45,944 bases of DNA from a virus. Of the stretch, positions 38,645 through 43,753 are shown one piece after another (position 1 is the stretch's first letter; each line of letters opens with the position of its first letter). Made by a program: the position numbers and the translations under genes. The notes beneath the pieces are model-generated. The model did not search any database. It saw only the letters and a list, made by a program, of their open reading frames with translations, and had not been told where the DNA came from. Where the stretch lies: positions 1 through 45,944 of the IMG/VR virus record IMGVR_UViG_3300020215_000014; one strand, given 5' to 3'.

Positions 38645-41600
38645 CTAGTTGACTACTGCCCCGGGACCGGTTGCCTGGTAGCAACCGTTCGGGGTGTCGT
38701 CCATGATGTCGCCAACGTCACCAAGGTCGTTGTCGAACTTGAATCCGCCGACGAGCGGAATCTTGCCGGGGACCTTCCCTTCGATGCGGGGGTCCAGCTC
38801 CCTCGACCGGGCGCCGAGGAACGTGAAGTCCACGTCAAGGTTGATGCCGAAGCCGCCCTTGTTGTAGACCTCCCACCGCAGCGTGTTGTGCGAGTACTGG
38901 AAGCCTGCGTCCGGGTCGGGGTCCGGGTGATCGTCGTCGGTCCGGCAGAGGTACCAGTGCCCGTTGTTCGGGAGGGTCTGGCTCATGCCCTGGCCCTCGT
39001 TGCCGTTCGGGCCGCCGATACCCCACACGCCGATGGTGATGGGGCAGTTCCCGGCGTTGGAGGTCGGGCACCGAACCATCGCTTCAGCGGTGTACTTCTT
39101 GAGGCCGGCTGCGCCGCCGGGGTAGGTCACGTCCTGCTGGATCGAGACTTCCCCGTTGCCGTTGCCGCTGTTGAACTGGACGAAGCAGCTCTCGTCGTAA
39201 CCGGTGCCGTTGCAGTACTTGACTCGGTTGACCGGCGAGCCCCACTGGTGCCAGAAGGTGTAGCCGTTGAGGTCCGGCGACTCCGCCATGCCCTGGTTCA
39301 CGAGCCAGTCCGCAACGACGTGCTGGACGGTGCTGCTACCAGTTGCGAGGATGTTCTGCTCCTGGAACACGTACGTGTACTCGTAGTCGTTGTTCACGCA
39401 CCACGACGCCTGGTACCGAGACTCCCGGCCCCAGATGGCGTTGTTCCAGTTGTCCAGCTCCGTGGGGTTCCACTTGCAGTCGGCGTTGTCGTGCGGAAGC
39501 ATCGGCAGACGGATGTCGTACATCGTGCCGACCTGCGCCTTCAACGTGACTGAGTAGTTCGAGGTGCAGCTCGTCTGGCAGTACGTGCCGAACTCGACCC
39601 AGTACTCGGTGTTGTTCGAGAGCGCCGAGACGTTGCCGACGCCGAAGCCGACCGAGATTTTGCCGTCGCTGCCGCAGTCGTCGTTGGCGAAGTAGTTCCA
39701 CGGCGTCACGTTCTTGCTCTCGAAGAACATGTTGTCCTCGTGAGGAAGTGCCGCCGCCGGGATGTTCGTCGCCCACAGACCAGGCTCGTAACCGCGGTCA
39801 CCAGGAGCGGAGTTCCAGTCGTAGCCCCACGGAGACTGCCCGTTGACGCAAGGGATGTCCGCTGCGATCTCCAGGGTCTGCATGTAGTTGTCCGACTGAA
39901 TCTGGTGGTGCGTCTGGTGGTACTGGAACGTCATCTTGAACTTGTTCACGGGGTTGCTGTTGTACGTCGTACGCCATGCGGCGAAGCCAACGTCCCGAGG
40001 CGCCCAGCCGCTGGCGCCGTGGCGCTTACGCTGCTCGGCCCGGGCCTTCTCGCTGTACGGCGTTTCGACCTTGCTCAGAGCTGCCCGGTAGACCGAGAGG
40101 TCCGGCACCGGGGTACGCAGCTCGTAGTCGTAGCTCGCTGCCGTGCTGCGGTAGAGCGGGCTGGCGATGAGAATCTTGTACCAGTCGAACCCGCGGTTGT
40201 CCACGTCGCCACCGGCAGTGGTGTCGATGAAGCGCCAGTCGTGCGACTGGAACTCGTGGAAGTACGCGTAGCCGAGGAGGTACTGGTTCGCTTCAAGGTC
40301 GAACTTCAGGTAGTCGAACATCTGCTTGAACCAGTCCTGACGACTGAAGACAGTGCTCGATCCGTTGCACTTGAAGGCCGTGTCGCCACTGCCGTTGCAG
40401 CCGGGGTGCGAGCCCAGCTCGGCGATGATCGCCGGCTTGGACAGCGCCGCCGCCAGGTCGAGGAACTCGTTGTTCGCACTGCTCGACGGGTCGTCGATCA
40501 GCGTCTCGAACGACTTCCACTCGTGGTTGCTGCTGGAGCAGGTGCCTGTGGACTTGCGGAAGCAGCCCCAGTTGAACACGTCGCCGCCGAGCACGTCGAA
40601 GTCGTCCGAGTTGGGACGCATCACGTCGTCGTCACCGACCACCGCACCCGGGGTCATGTTCGAGTTCACGCCGATGTAGGTGATGAGCACCTTCTTGCAG
40701 GGGTGCCCGTACACGCCGCCGGTGGTGCCACCGGTGCTGGTGCAGGCAACCTGCTGGCGGAGCCGCATCTGGTGGTAAAGGTCCTTGAACTCCGCCGAGG
40801 TACCGAGGCAGGGGTCGTGGCTGGCGTCGCTGCCGGACGGGCTGGTCGTGGACCCGCACTTCCGGTTCGCTGAGCCGTTGTCCCAGCCCTTGCTCGTGTC
40901 ACTGGCGTTGTCGTGGGGCTCGTGGCTGACGGCGTAGAACATCATCGCCGGTCCGTTGGTCTGGTTCGCCGAACTCTGAAGCGACCTGATCTGGCTGTCG
41001 ATCATGGACGTGTCAGCGGCGGCCCGCTTCCAGGGGGAGTCGCTGCCGCTCCAGGCCGGGGGCTTGGCCGACCAAATGACGGACTTGCCCTCGCTGGCCC
41101 AGGTGGCGACCCGGCTGCTCGGGGGGTTCCAGTCCGACTTGTAGTCGCGGACCAGGCTCATGTTCTTCGCCAGGCCGGTGCTGGTGTTCGCCTGCTCCTG
41201 CGTCAGCTCGCTGGTGCTGTTGCCGTCCGGGTGCGCGCCCCAGAGGTAGCCCTGGCCGACGTAGAAGTACCCACGGCCGTAGTGGTAGGTGTTGCCCTCG
41301 CCGAGGCTGGTGCAGGGATCGGGGGTGCACTCGTTCTGGGTCCGGAGTTCGAGAATCATCTCGTACCAGCCCGGGGCGAGCGCGGCGTCAGCGGCGCCGT
41401 CGAACGGCTCCGCGTCCATCTGGACGGTGATGGTCGGCGACTGCTGCTGGTGCCAGCCACCGGGGTTGTTCATCACGTACGAGCCGGGGAGCACGGTGCC
41501 GTTCTCGTTCCGAATCTTGAACGTGACGCTGGTGTAGTAGTCGGCGTGGCTCGTGGACGTACCGGCCCAGCCTTCGTTCACCTCGATACAGAAGTTGCCG

Positions 41601-41920
41601 GTGCCTCCGGAGACGAACGTTGTCTGGAGGGCACCACCGAGGTCAGCAGCTTCGTTGGCCTGGTTGGCCATGTTCGTGCCGCTGTCACAGGCGGAGTGCT
41701 GCTGCGGGTGAACGATGGCGAACGACTTCCAGTAGTCGCCCGACACGTCGAACCGCATGTCCACTTTGGTGAGGCCGAATCCGTTGAACTCGTTCCACCA
41801 CTCGTGTTCGGCGGGCGGGTCCGCCGAGGCGATAGGGGCGTTAGCGACCACGCCCGTCAGGGTCGGGAGGAGCGCCGTCACGGCTAAGAGCGCGCGACGC
41901 CAACATCGTCTCATTCTCAA
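38645..41920 (-). CDS. Large secreted protein with GH26-like glycoside hydrolase domain
   Basis: 1091 residues, TTG start at 41920 (AAAGGA upstream; an ATG six bases on is possible). Signal peptide at about 1-33. Residues ~240-570 look like a clan GH-A barrel: acid/base Glu334 in FYAVSHEPHDNAS and nucleophile Glu501 in KPAIIAELGSHPG, with FNWGCF and the barrel-end YAYFHEF between and after. This is the arrangement of GH26-type secreted enzymes. The last ~500 residues are beta-rich with several Cys pairs, possibly carbohydrate-binding modules. The codon choice looks less extreme in GC than in the virion genes. Secretion, not virion assembly, is implied. Confidence 0.7.
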   Translation of the reverse strand: MRMRRCWRRALLAVTALLPTLTGVVANAPIASADPPAEHEWWNEFNGFGLTKVDMRFDVSGDYWKSFAIVHPQQHSACDSGTNMANQANEAADLGGALQTTFVSGGTGNFCIEVNEGWAGTSTSHADYYTSVTFKIRNENGTVLPGSYVMNNPGGWHQQQSPTITVQMDAEPFDGAADAALAPGWYEMILELRTQNECTPDPCTSLGEGNTYHYGRGYFYVGQGYLWGAHPDGNSTSELTQEQANTSTGLAKNMSLVRDYKSDWNPPSSRVATWASEGKSVIWSAKPPAWSGSDSPWKRAAADTSMIDSQIRSLQSSANQTNGPAMMFYAVSHEPHDNASDTSKGWDNGSANRKCGSTTSPSGSDASHDPCLGTSAEFKDLYHQMRLRQQVACTSTGGTTGGVYGHPCKKVLITYIGVNSNMTPGAVVGDDDVMRPNSDDFDVLGGDVFNWGCFRKSTGTCSSSNHEWKSFETLIDDPSSSANNEFLDLAAALSKPAIIAELGSHPGCNGSGDTAFKCNGSSTVFSRQDWFKQMFDYLKFDLEANQYLLGYAYFHEFQSHDWRFIDTTAGGDVDNRGFDWYKILIASPLYRSTAASYDYELRTPVPDLSVYRAALSKVETPYSEKARAEQRKRHGASGWAPRDVGFAAWRTTYNSNPVNKFKMTFQYHQTHHQIQSDNYMQTLEIAADIPCVNGQSPWGYDWNSAPGDRGYEPGLWATNIPAAALPHEDNMFFESKNVTPWNYFANDDCGSDGKISVGFGVGNVSALSNNTEYWVEFGTYCQTSCTSNYSVTLKAQVGTMYDIRLPMLPHDNADCKWNPTELDNWNNAIWGRESRYQASWCVNNDYEYTYVFQEQNILATGSSTVQHVVADWLVNQGMAESPDLNGYTFWHQWGSPVNRVKYCNGTGYDESCFVQFNSGNGNGEVSIQQDVTYPGGAAGLKKYTAEAMVRCPTSNAGNCPITIGVWGIGGPNGNEGQGMSQTLPNNGHWYLCRTDDDHPDPDPDAGFQYSHNTLRWEVYNKGGFGINLDVDFTFLGARSRELDPRIEGKVPGKIPLVGGFKFDNDLGDVGDIMDDTPNGCYQATGPGAVVN

Positions 41921-42463: not shown

Positions 42464-42622
42464 TCAGCGGTCCTTCTTGGCGACGTGCACCGTCAGCCAC
42501 GCAATGCCGATGAACGCCTCGGCACGGTTGCGGCGCAGGATCGCCGTGATGGTGTCTTGCCTGGCGAGCTTCGCCGCCACGTCGATGGCGACGACGGCGC
42601 CCACCAGGGCGAGCAGCGCCAT
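42464..42622 (-). CDS. Small membrane-associated protein (52 aa)
   Basis: ATG at 42622 (TGATG overlap upstream); its TGA directly abuts the next GTG. An N-terminal hydrophobic helix (ALLALVGAVVAIDVAA) is followed by an amphipathic segment and AFIGIAWLTVHVA, ending in KKDR. Could be a second holin-like or membrane protein of the lysis region. Confidence 0.6.
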   Translation of the reverse strand: MALLALVGAVVAIDVAAKLARQDTITAILRRNRAEAFIGIAWLTVHVAKKDR

Positions 42623-42768
42623 CAGCGGAGCGGCCTCAACGCCAGGACGCTGAGCGGACCGAACTCAATCTGCAATCCCCACGTGTGGTAGCGCTCCGCG
42701 CGGACTTGCCAGTTGAGCGGGTTCAGCGTGAACGTGATCTGCAAGTCGTACGCTTCGAGTCGACGCAT
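42622..42768 (-). CDS. Hypothetical protein (48 aa)
   Basis: ATG at 42768 overlaps the stop of the Pup gene (TGATG), and its stop overlaps the next start the same way. The product is beta-like with aromatic residues (LQITFTLNPLNWQVRAERYH). No family was recognised. Tight coupling to pup suggests shared regulation. Confidence 0.6.
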   Translation of the reverse strand: MRRLEAYDLQITFTLNPLNWQVRAERYHTWGLQIEFGPLSVLALRPLR

Positions 42769-42971
42769 CACTCGCCGCCCTTCTGCCGGAAGTTGGTCAG
42801 TACCTCCTGCTCCTCCAGGAGCCCGTCGATCTCGTCGAGAAGGTCGTCGATGTCGGACGTGTCAGCGGCCGGCTTCGACTGTGCGGACTGGACAGCCGCG
42901 TCGTCGGCCGCCAGTTGGTCGAGGGACTCCTTCGTCTCCTGCGGCTTGGGCTTCTGAATCCGCTCAGCCAC
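42768..42971 (-). CDS. pup: Pup, prokaryotic ubiquitin-like protein homologue
   Basis: 67 residues from a GTG at 42971 with AGGAG seven bases upstream. The N-terminal ~40 residues are polar and look disordered. Then IDDLLDEIDGLLEEQE (41-56) and the C-terminus FRQKGGE (61-67) match bacterial Pup (DDLLDEID-x-VLEEN ... QKGG-Q/E). The last residue is already Glu, so the protein should not need Dop deamidation before PafA ligates it to lysines. The region between is two residues shorter than in the mycobacterial protein. It lies between the holin and a small gene. Host PafA and Mpa-proteasome are the expected partners; no ligase is encoded in the window. Confidence 0.9.
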   Translation of the reverse strand: MAERIQKPKPQETKESLDQLAADDAAVQSAQSKPAADTSDIDDLLDEIDGLLEEQEVLTNFRQKGGE

Positions 42972-43152
42972 GGCTCAGCTCCTGCAGCTTCGCCAGGGCG
43001 GCAGCCCCAGCAGCGACGGCGGCGGCCTTGAGGACCGACACGTCGAGGTAGCCGGTGCCAGCGGCGACCAGTACGGCCAGTCCGGCCTGGACGGCTGTAC
43101 GGACTACGGGGGACGCGTAAGCCATACCGATGAGGGACTTGAGCTTGCTCAT
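42964..43152 (-). CDS. Putative holin (62 aa)
   Basis: ATG at 43152. A basic N-terminus (MSKLKSLIGM) precedes two hydrophobic stretches (VVRTAVQAGLAVLVAAGTGYLD and VLKAAAVAAGAAALAKL), with a charged end, the form of small actinophage holins. It is encoded in the same leftward group as the M15-type endolysin. Overlaps pup by 8 bp. Confidence 0.7.
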   Translation of the reverse strand: MSKLKSLIGMAYASPVVRTAVQAGLAVLVAAGTGYLDVSVLKAAAVAAGAAALAKLQELSRG

Positions 43153-43346
43153 TGATCAGTCTCCGTTTCTTCGGCGATGTCGCCGTAGTGGGGCAGGTTT
43201 TCCTCGGCGTAGTCGAGGGCGGCACGCAGCAGCTCGGGCAGTTCGAGCCAGGAGAACTCGCTGGCGTCGACCTCGACCCGGTTCTCGTCGTCGTAGTACC
43301 AGACGATCAGGAGCCGGCGGTTCGGACTGGGCAACTCGTCGCTCAT
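43149..43346 (-). CDS. Acidic hypothetical protein (65 aa)
   Basis: ATG at 43346 with AAGGAGCTGCG upstream. The product has a beta hairpin (RRLLIVWYYDDENRVEVDA) and an acidic helical tail. Overlaps the holin gene by 4 bp. No family was recognised. Confidence 0.62.
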   Translation of the reverse strand: MSDELPSPNRRLLIVWYYDDENRVEVDASEFSWLELPELLRAALDYAEENLPHYGDIAEETETDQ

Positions 43347-43753
43347 CGCAGCTCCTTGATCAGCGCGTCGAGTTCGGTGAATACGCCAGTGGCGAAGCGG
43401 TACATCACGTCGAACCGCTCGGGCTCGCCGTCGAGGAGGACGTAGCCCCGCTTGCCCTGGCCGAGCATCCAGCCCAGCTCCAGGTGGGCGGACTTGCCCG
43501 CCGGGGCGACGAGCACAGCGGCGTAGGACTGGGACAGGTGGAACCGGTCGAAGTCGAACACGTTGCGGGCGTGCGCGCCGTCGAGCGCCTCGGTGTAGCT
43601 GCGCCCGCGCTGCTGCTCGTAGCGCTGCCACGCGTCGTCAGCGTCGGGCCCGGCGGCGTGCCAGTCATCGAACACTTCGAGGCCGGCGCCCCGCATCTCG
43701 TCGGCGACGTACGGGATGCGGGGGTTGCGGAGGGAGCCGATCAGGTAGATCAC
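43343..43753 (-). CDS. Nucleoside 2-deoxyribosyltransferase-like protein
   Basis: 136 residues, GTG start in GTGA overlap. The fold signature is clear: IYLIGSLRNP at the N-terminus, DFDRFHLSQSYAAVLVAPAGKSAHLELGWMLGQGK near 67-101 with Glu92 as candidate nucleophile, and a final YRFATGVFTELDAL. Members exchange bases on deoxynucleosides; relatives in the same superfamily hydrolyse NAD or nucleotides in immunity systems. Salvage of nucleotides and anti-defence action are both possible. Confidence 0.78.
   Translation of the reverse strand: MIYLIGSLRNPRIPYVADEMRGAGLEVFDDWHAAGPDADDAWQRYEQQRGRSYTEALDGAHARNVFDFDRFHLSQSYAAVLVAPAGKSAHLELGWMLGQGKRGYVLLDGEPERFDVMYRFATGVFTELDALIKELR

Follow-up and report, generated by a model that had tools for sequence, protein, structure and literature searches.

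Ubiquitin-like conjugation is reportedly deployed by bacteria against phages, as set out by Hor, Wolf and Sorek in 2024 (cited in PMC13175485). A phage-encoded prokaryotic ubiquitin-like protein (Pup) is already known as a database annotation: gene HUN42_00036 of the cultured Streptomyces phage Dagobah, which adjoins the endolysin gene, is annotated 'ubiquitin-like protein Pup', and the publication text on Dagobah does not mention the gene. In a literature search covering openly licensed published papers, neither Pups encoded by phages nor the short-helix Pups described below were the subject of any paper found; as far as found, what is new here is a short-helix phage member together with a putative cellular short-Pup module.

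Pup residues 21–51 form a helix on the coiled coil of Mpa, with the N-terminus threaded into its pore (PMC8755798). The last 27 residues form two helices within the groove of PafA or Dop (PMC8599861). A Pup that ends in Glu can be ligated without the action of Dop, and that of Corynebacterium glutamicum has this ending naturally (PMC3511204).

The DNA analysed here (the window) spans 45,944 bases and makes up an entire IMG/VR virus record. It contains genes for terminase, portal, major head protein, tail proteins, DNA polymerase, exonuclease and integrase, so that the carrier looks like a temperate tailed phage; no close relatives of it were found. The pup-like gene and its surroundings comprise the following features:

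42464..42622, minus strand: 52-aa small ORF, 57% conserved beside the Pup of phage L003 (tblastn).
42622..42771, minus strand: 49-aa ORF with no assigned function, directly downstream and overlapping the pup-like stop; it occupies the position that a partner gene of about 82 aa takes in cellular loci.
42768..42971, minus strand: pup-like gene, 67 aa, GTG start, assigned to the short-helix Pup subfamily (PF05639 match, held-out HMMs and tree).
42771..42785, minus strand: QKGGE tail, residues 63–67, with terminal Glu (translation).
42786..42824, minus strand: GLLEEQEVLTNFR, residues 50–62, the second-helix segment, shorter by two residues than in canonical Pup (alignments).
42825..42848, minus strand: DDLLDEID core, residues 42–49 (sequence); in Pup, the Mpa-binding helix and first PafA-Dop helix (PMC8755798, PMC8599861).
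42964..43152, minus strand: r1t-type holin, 62 aa, directly upstream of the pup-like gene with an 8-nt overlap (PF16945, 28.1 bits against a cut-off of 26.9; the L003 homologue lies in the same place).
42979..42983, minus strand: Shine-Dalgarno AGGAG, 7 nt 5' of the GTG start (sequence).

The translated product is VAERIQKPKPQETKESLDQLAADDAAVQSAQSKPAADTSDIDDLLDEIDGLLEEQEVLTNFRQKGGE, followed by the stop. The start of the gene overlaps the 3' end of the holin gene and its stop overlaps the start of the next ORF, and its codon-position GC (0.75/0.34/0.88) resembles that of the adjacent genes. The protein has an N-terminus of 38 residues, beginning with a MAERIQKPK stretch similar to that of acidimicrobial Pups, and the DDLLDEID helix; its structure model is of low confidence (pLDDT 66). 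Both the position and the adjoining holin given in an initial annotation of this DNA hold, with the strand to be read as minus. Elsewhere in the record, a nucleoside deoxyribosyltransferase-like gene (phrog_12607; 43343-43753, minus strand) lies near the holin and pup-like genes, and a 1091-aa protein with a signal-peptide-like start, unusual in a phage, is encoded at 38645-41920 (minus strand) and has no Pfam or PHROGs match.

Membership of the Pup family is confirmed by several comparisons, in keeping with what the initial annotation had proposed. The protein matches PF05639 with 37.1 bits (E 6.1e-9; residues 10–67 to model positions 11–69) against a curated gathering cut-off of 27 bits, Pup chains in the PDB match it, and phage L003 has a homologue in the same position; PHROGs contains no family for it. 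QKGGE supplies the C-terminal Gly-Gly-Glu/Gln of the NCBIfam Pup equivalog TIGR03687, for which the protein scores 28.9 bits, below the equivalog cut-off of 41.45, compared with 24.2 for phage L034, 42.9 for Dagobah and 59.5 for L003. Because of this score, a role as a direct substrate of PafA is only plausible.

Comparison with the 80 cellular Pup loci closest to it, most of them from Acidimicrobiia, shows where the protein departs from its relatives. A canonical pup gene lies next to Dop and PafA and in most cases to prcBA or mpa as well; PafA or Dop lies in the flank of 79 of these 80 loci, whereas the window record contains neither. From DEID to the C-terminus there are 20 residues in all 80 (74 counted by script and six read from the sequences by eye) and 18 in the window and in L034, so the two-residue shortening noted initially stands; it had been linked to Mpa binding only, though the segment concerned is the second helix docking into PafA and Dop (PMC8599861). 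Terminal Glu, also singled out at the outset, fails as a distinguishing mark among Pups generally, since 47 of these 80 cellular Pups end in it (the other 33 in Gln), as does that of C. glutamicum. It does set phage from cellular members within the short-helix subfamily, where all eight clear cellular proteins end in Gln and both phage proteins (window and L034) in Glu.

The cellular members of this subfamily come from the Acidimicrobiia, in which Pup was found in 332 of 395 genomes. Extra, weakly scoring copies are present in three of them (G253, G268 and G277), the sole sampled members of one family, and eight of these copies carry the two-residue deletion and motif of the window protein (for example DELLDEIDALLEEQSVLTNFRQKGGQ, compared with DDLLDEIDGLLEEQEVLTNFRQKGGE in the window); the C-terminal half of the window Pup is 82–85% identical to the two closest, L145 and L152. 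The shortening of GLLEEQEVLTNFR is identical in the alignments of L034 and the cellular short Pups. An HMM built from the eight cellular members, with the window and L034 left out, gives the window protein 60.5 bits, compared with 44.7 for a canonical and 42.7 for a phage-canonical model, and gives L034 52.2 bits against 39.0 and 36.2 for the canonical-type models, whereas all other phage Pups favour the canonical models by at least 18 bits. In a class-wide search the eight members score 81–98 bits and the top canonical Pup 55. A tree from 65 columns, which resolves little else, splits the window, L034 and the eight cellular short Pups from all canonical Pups with support of 99/96. The window protein combines the LLDEID helix, the deletion, the FRQ-type tail and the better held-out short-model score, and the deletion marks a distinct short-helix Pup subfamily. 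Since intact genes in cellular genomes have the short-helix form too, it is not a sign of decay.

G253 and G277 carry the usual Dop-Pup-PrcB-PrcA-PafA locus alongside their short Pups. Each encodes only two PF03136 proteins, the ordinary PafA/Dop pair, and neither yielded a further ligase dedicated to short Pups, which had been considered as a candidate; no PF03136 protein was found in G268, a genome that is possibly incomplete. A search of plasmids gave no short-Pup match. Multiple Pups were also seen in a Rokuibacteriota MAG (G053), with three canonical-helix Pups on separate contigs (L113, L142 and L148), one of them without PafA or Dop nearby; this is either a genuine multi-Pup genome or a mixed bin.

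The cellular short Pups have a companion. Where the downstream region is readable, an overlapping gene of 82–84 aa follows, with a conserved HHPITC...C.H pattern. Among 397 sampled genomes of the phylum this partner was found in one, G253, with six copies; it is also present in G277 and G268, directly behind the short Pup in phage L034, and alone in the viral contig L217. The partner protein has no Pfam or NCBIfam match and no match in annotated phages, and its structure model is of low confidence (pLDDT 47). Neither alignment nor a partner profile detects it in the window, where the 49-aa ORF in its place is not recognisable as a partner. A partner-profile match in Dagobah (E 0.002) was set aside as spurious, being of 14 bits and distant from the Dagobah pup gene.

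Within the three genomes, short-Pup and partner cassettes (L154, L155, L156, L157, L158, L159 and L161) occupy unrelated chromosomal loci, several per genome, and their Pup ends vary between GGQ, RSGQ and PGQ; the RSGQ ends may resemble UBact. Diverged Pup-like ORFs ending in QWEGE and followed by the partner lie at L207:4235-6297 and L215:497-951 (G253 and G268), with a family 2B encapsulin shell gene adjoining the pair in L207. In L217 (6008-6304) the partner sits directly behind a RusA-like gene and no Pup was seen, and in L034 the order is resolvase-like gene, Pup, partner.

Phage L003 is related to the window phage across several genes (35–47% identity in tail genes, 52% in the exonuclease, 53% in the holin, 57% in the small ORF and 38% in Pup) and has its Pup in the same slot between the holin and the 52-aa ORF. 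The occupant is a canonical Pup in L003 and a short Pup in the window, as if the Pup type were matched to the host; we infer that the slot stays constant while its Pup type tracks the host.

Scans of IMG/VR and annotated phages with profiles and single sequences found about 28 further distinct phage Pups, Dagobah included, a lower bound since the scans rely on short peptide patterns. The M. tuberculosis Pup as query matched nothing in phages, so single-sequence searches miss phage Pups. No PafA or Dop was found in 44 virus records or in Dagobah, each searched over the whole record, and a control, a mislabelled bacterial piece, was positive. The tag alone has thus been retained. That piece, MT835496.1 (L005), was deposited as 'Bacteriophage sp.' and was rejected as a second annotated phage Pup; it holds a Mpa-Dop-Pup-PafA locus, so at least that part is bacterial chromosome.

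Among 29 distinct phage Pups the C-terminus is Glu in 21 and Gln in eight, with Gly penultimate in all. This end is conserved despite strong divergence elsewhere, also in Pups found through internal rather than C-terminal search patterns, although some have altered tails (QAQGQ, QQSGQ) and a few have lost the GG motif. Purifying selection acts on sibling phage Pups, between which dN/dS is about 0.05–0.33. The tree places phage Pups at several points, at least two of them forced by well-supported branches. Their neighbours include UvsY, UvsW-type helicase, terminase, DNA polymerase/primase, dCMP deaminase, thymidylate synthase and endonuclease VII genes. The placement in the lysis region emphasised initially is therefore not general, since other phage pups lie beside replication, recombination and terminase genes, and a lysis-specific function was rejected. 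In four IMG/VR records (L011, L040, L041 and L047) a QRGGE-ended Pup lies between UvsY-like and helicase genes in a T4-like order; the hosts of these phages are presumably competent for pupylation.

Profile searches of the window record found no PafA or Dop (PF03136) and no proteasome subunit (PF00227). The initial annotation had reported the same and had the product acting through host machinery; with a Pup-family gene present and its enzymes absent, any Pup-like action would indeed need the host. The major head protein matches 14 phage records, whose hosts, where named, are all actinobacteria. A search of 390 Acidimicrobiia genomes, run without a positive control, did not find it, and a host assignment through prophage relatives gained no support.

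The best reading, to which we give a little short of an even chance, is that the Glu-ended short-helix Pup is a pre-activated tag attached by host enzymes. The phage would supply the tag, an acidic protein whose N-terminus is probably disordered and whose C-terminal Glu can be ligated, and leave the enzymes to its host. PafA of that host, an actinobacterium and perhaps a member of the Acidimicrobiia with short-helix Pups of its own, would join the tag to lysines of host proteins. Requiring no deamidation by Dop, the Glu end could outrun the Gln-ended short Pups of the host. The outcome would be pupylation redirected at a time set by the phage, with extra targets passed through Mpa to the host proteasome, the host tag out-competed, or both. 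The phage may in this way use the host's own protein-tagging machinery, though the conjugation, the host, the targets and the benefit are all conjectural. The co-occurrence of short Pups with one ordinary PafA/Dop pair in G253 and G277 counts in favour of conjugation by the host, and the actinophage-matching capsid protein and acidimicrobial-like N-terminus count in favour of the host supposed; that the host is not proved, with the capsid protein not found in the 390 genomes, counts against. Canonical PafA may not accept the window Pup, given the deletion in the part that docks into PafA and Dop (PMC8599861) and the score below the equivalog cut-off. The chemistry of cellular short Pups may also differ from pupylation, since a partner gene accompanies them that is missing from the window, and the altered tails of some phage Pups suggest that conjugation is perhaps not general.

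We rank this tag above a decoy, and a decoy above an action on the short-Pup and partner module. As a competitive inhibitor, the phage Pup would occupy PafA, Dop or Mpa and thereby, during infection, hold back stress responses or the breakdown of phage proteins. A small free Pup without enzymes would suit such a role, as would a DDLLDEID Mpa-binding helix kept beside an altered ligase-docking segment and the loss of the GG motif in a few phage Pups. We nonetheless consider it unlikely: all 29 phage Pups retain the terminal Glu or Gln behind Gly, and the window protein the full QKGGE, which argues for conjugation, since a pure Mpa decoy relying on the helix would not need such an end. Free Pup is moreover unstable (PMC5358908), which would make it a poor stoichiometric inhibitor.

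The target could instead be the short-Pup and partner cassettes of the host rather than its Pup-proteasome system, the lone phage short Pup serving as counter-module or mimic; short Pup and partner would then form a small two-gene module, perhaps one that resembles a toxin-antitoxin pair or one that consists of a tag and its dedicated receptor. The scattering of overlapping two-gene copies over chromosomes, the complete copy in L034 beside the lone pup of the window, the variable C-termini (WEGE among them) and the lack of adjoining PafA or Dop fit this picture. It is quite unlikely all the same, as the partner has neither a known activity nor a recognised family or usable model, and the module was found only in one small acidimicrobial family and L034, with the partner alone in L217. 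That the gene is a passenger, captured from a host and decaying without function, would agree with its divergence from canonical Pup and the missing partner, and is very improbable: the ORF is intact with a good codon pattern and start signal, the slot is kept in L003, sibling phage Pups are under purifying selection, and intact cellular genes have the short-helix form. A broader conjecture, speculative and rather unlikely, is that short-helix Pup and partner form a second, undescribed Pup-based module beside ordinary pupylation in some Acidimicrobiia, captured by phages, with the window protein a Glu-ended orphan tag that feeds or blocks it.

The recurrence of the tag alone in many different phages suggests that pupylation is exploited by phages, an idea for which S. 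coelicolor and Dagobah offer a direct laboratory test; the window member joins the short-helix form to a pre-activated end. Compared with canonical Pup (PF05639, TIGR03687; M. tuberculosis, C. glutamicum and Acidimicrobiia), the window protein is alike in small size, acidity, the DDLLDEID helix and the QKGG[E/Q] tail, and differs in lacking two second-helix residues, in its sub-cut-off equivalog score and in being phage-borne, away from Dop, PafA and prcBA. With the short-helix paralogues of G253, G268 and G277 it shares the deletion, the FRQ motif and a held-out model preference of 16 bits, but the eight clear cellular members are Gln-ended and accompanied by the partner of about 82 aa. L034 (IMG/VR 3300036851_000408) has a short-helix Pup ending, like that of the window, in NFRQKGGE, but keeps the partner and places the gene in a nucleotide-metabolism/resolvase region, away from the holin. 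Dagobah and about 27 other phages resemble the window in carrying an enzyme-less Pup, which in Dagobah lies beside endolysin and has a QVGGE tail; all but L034 differ from the window in being of canonical type, with varied neighbours.
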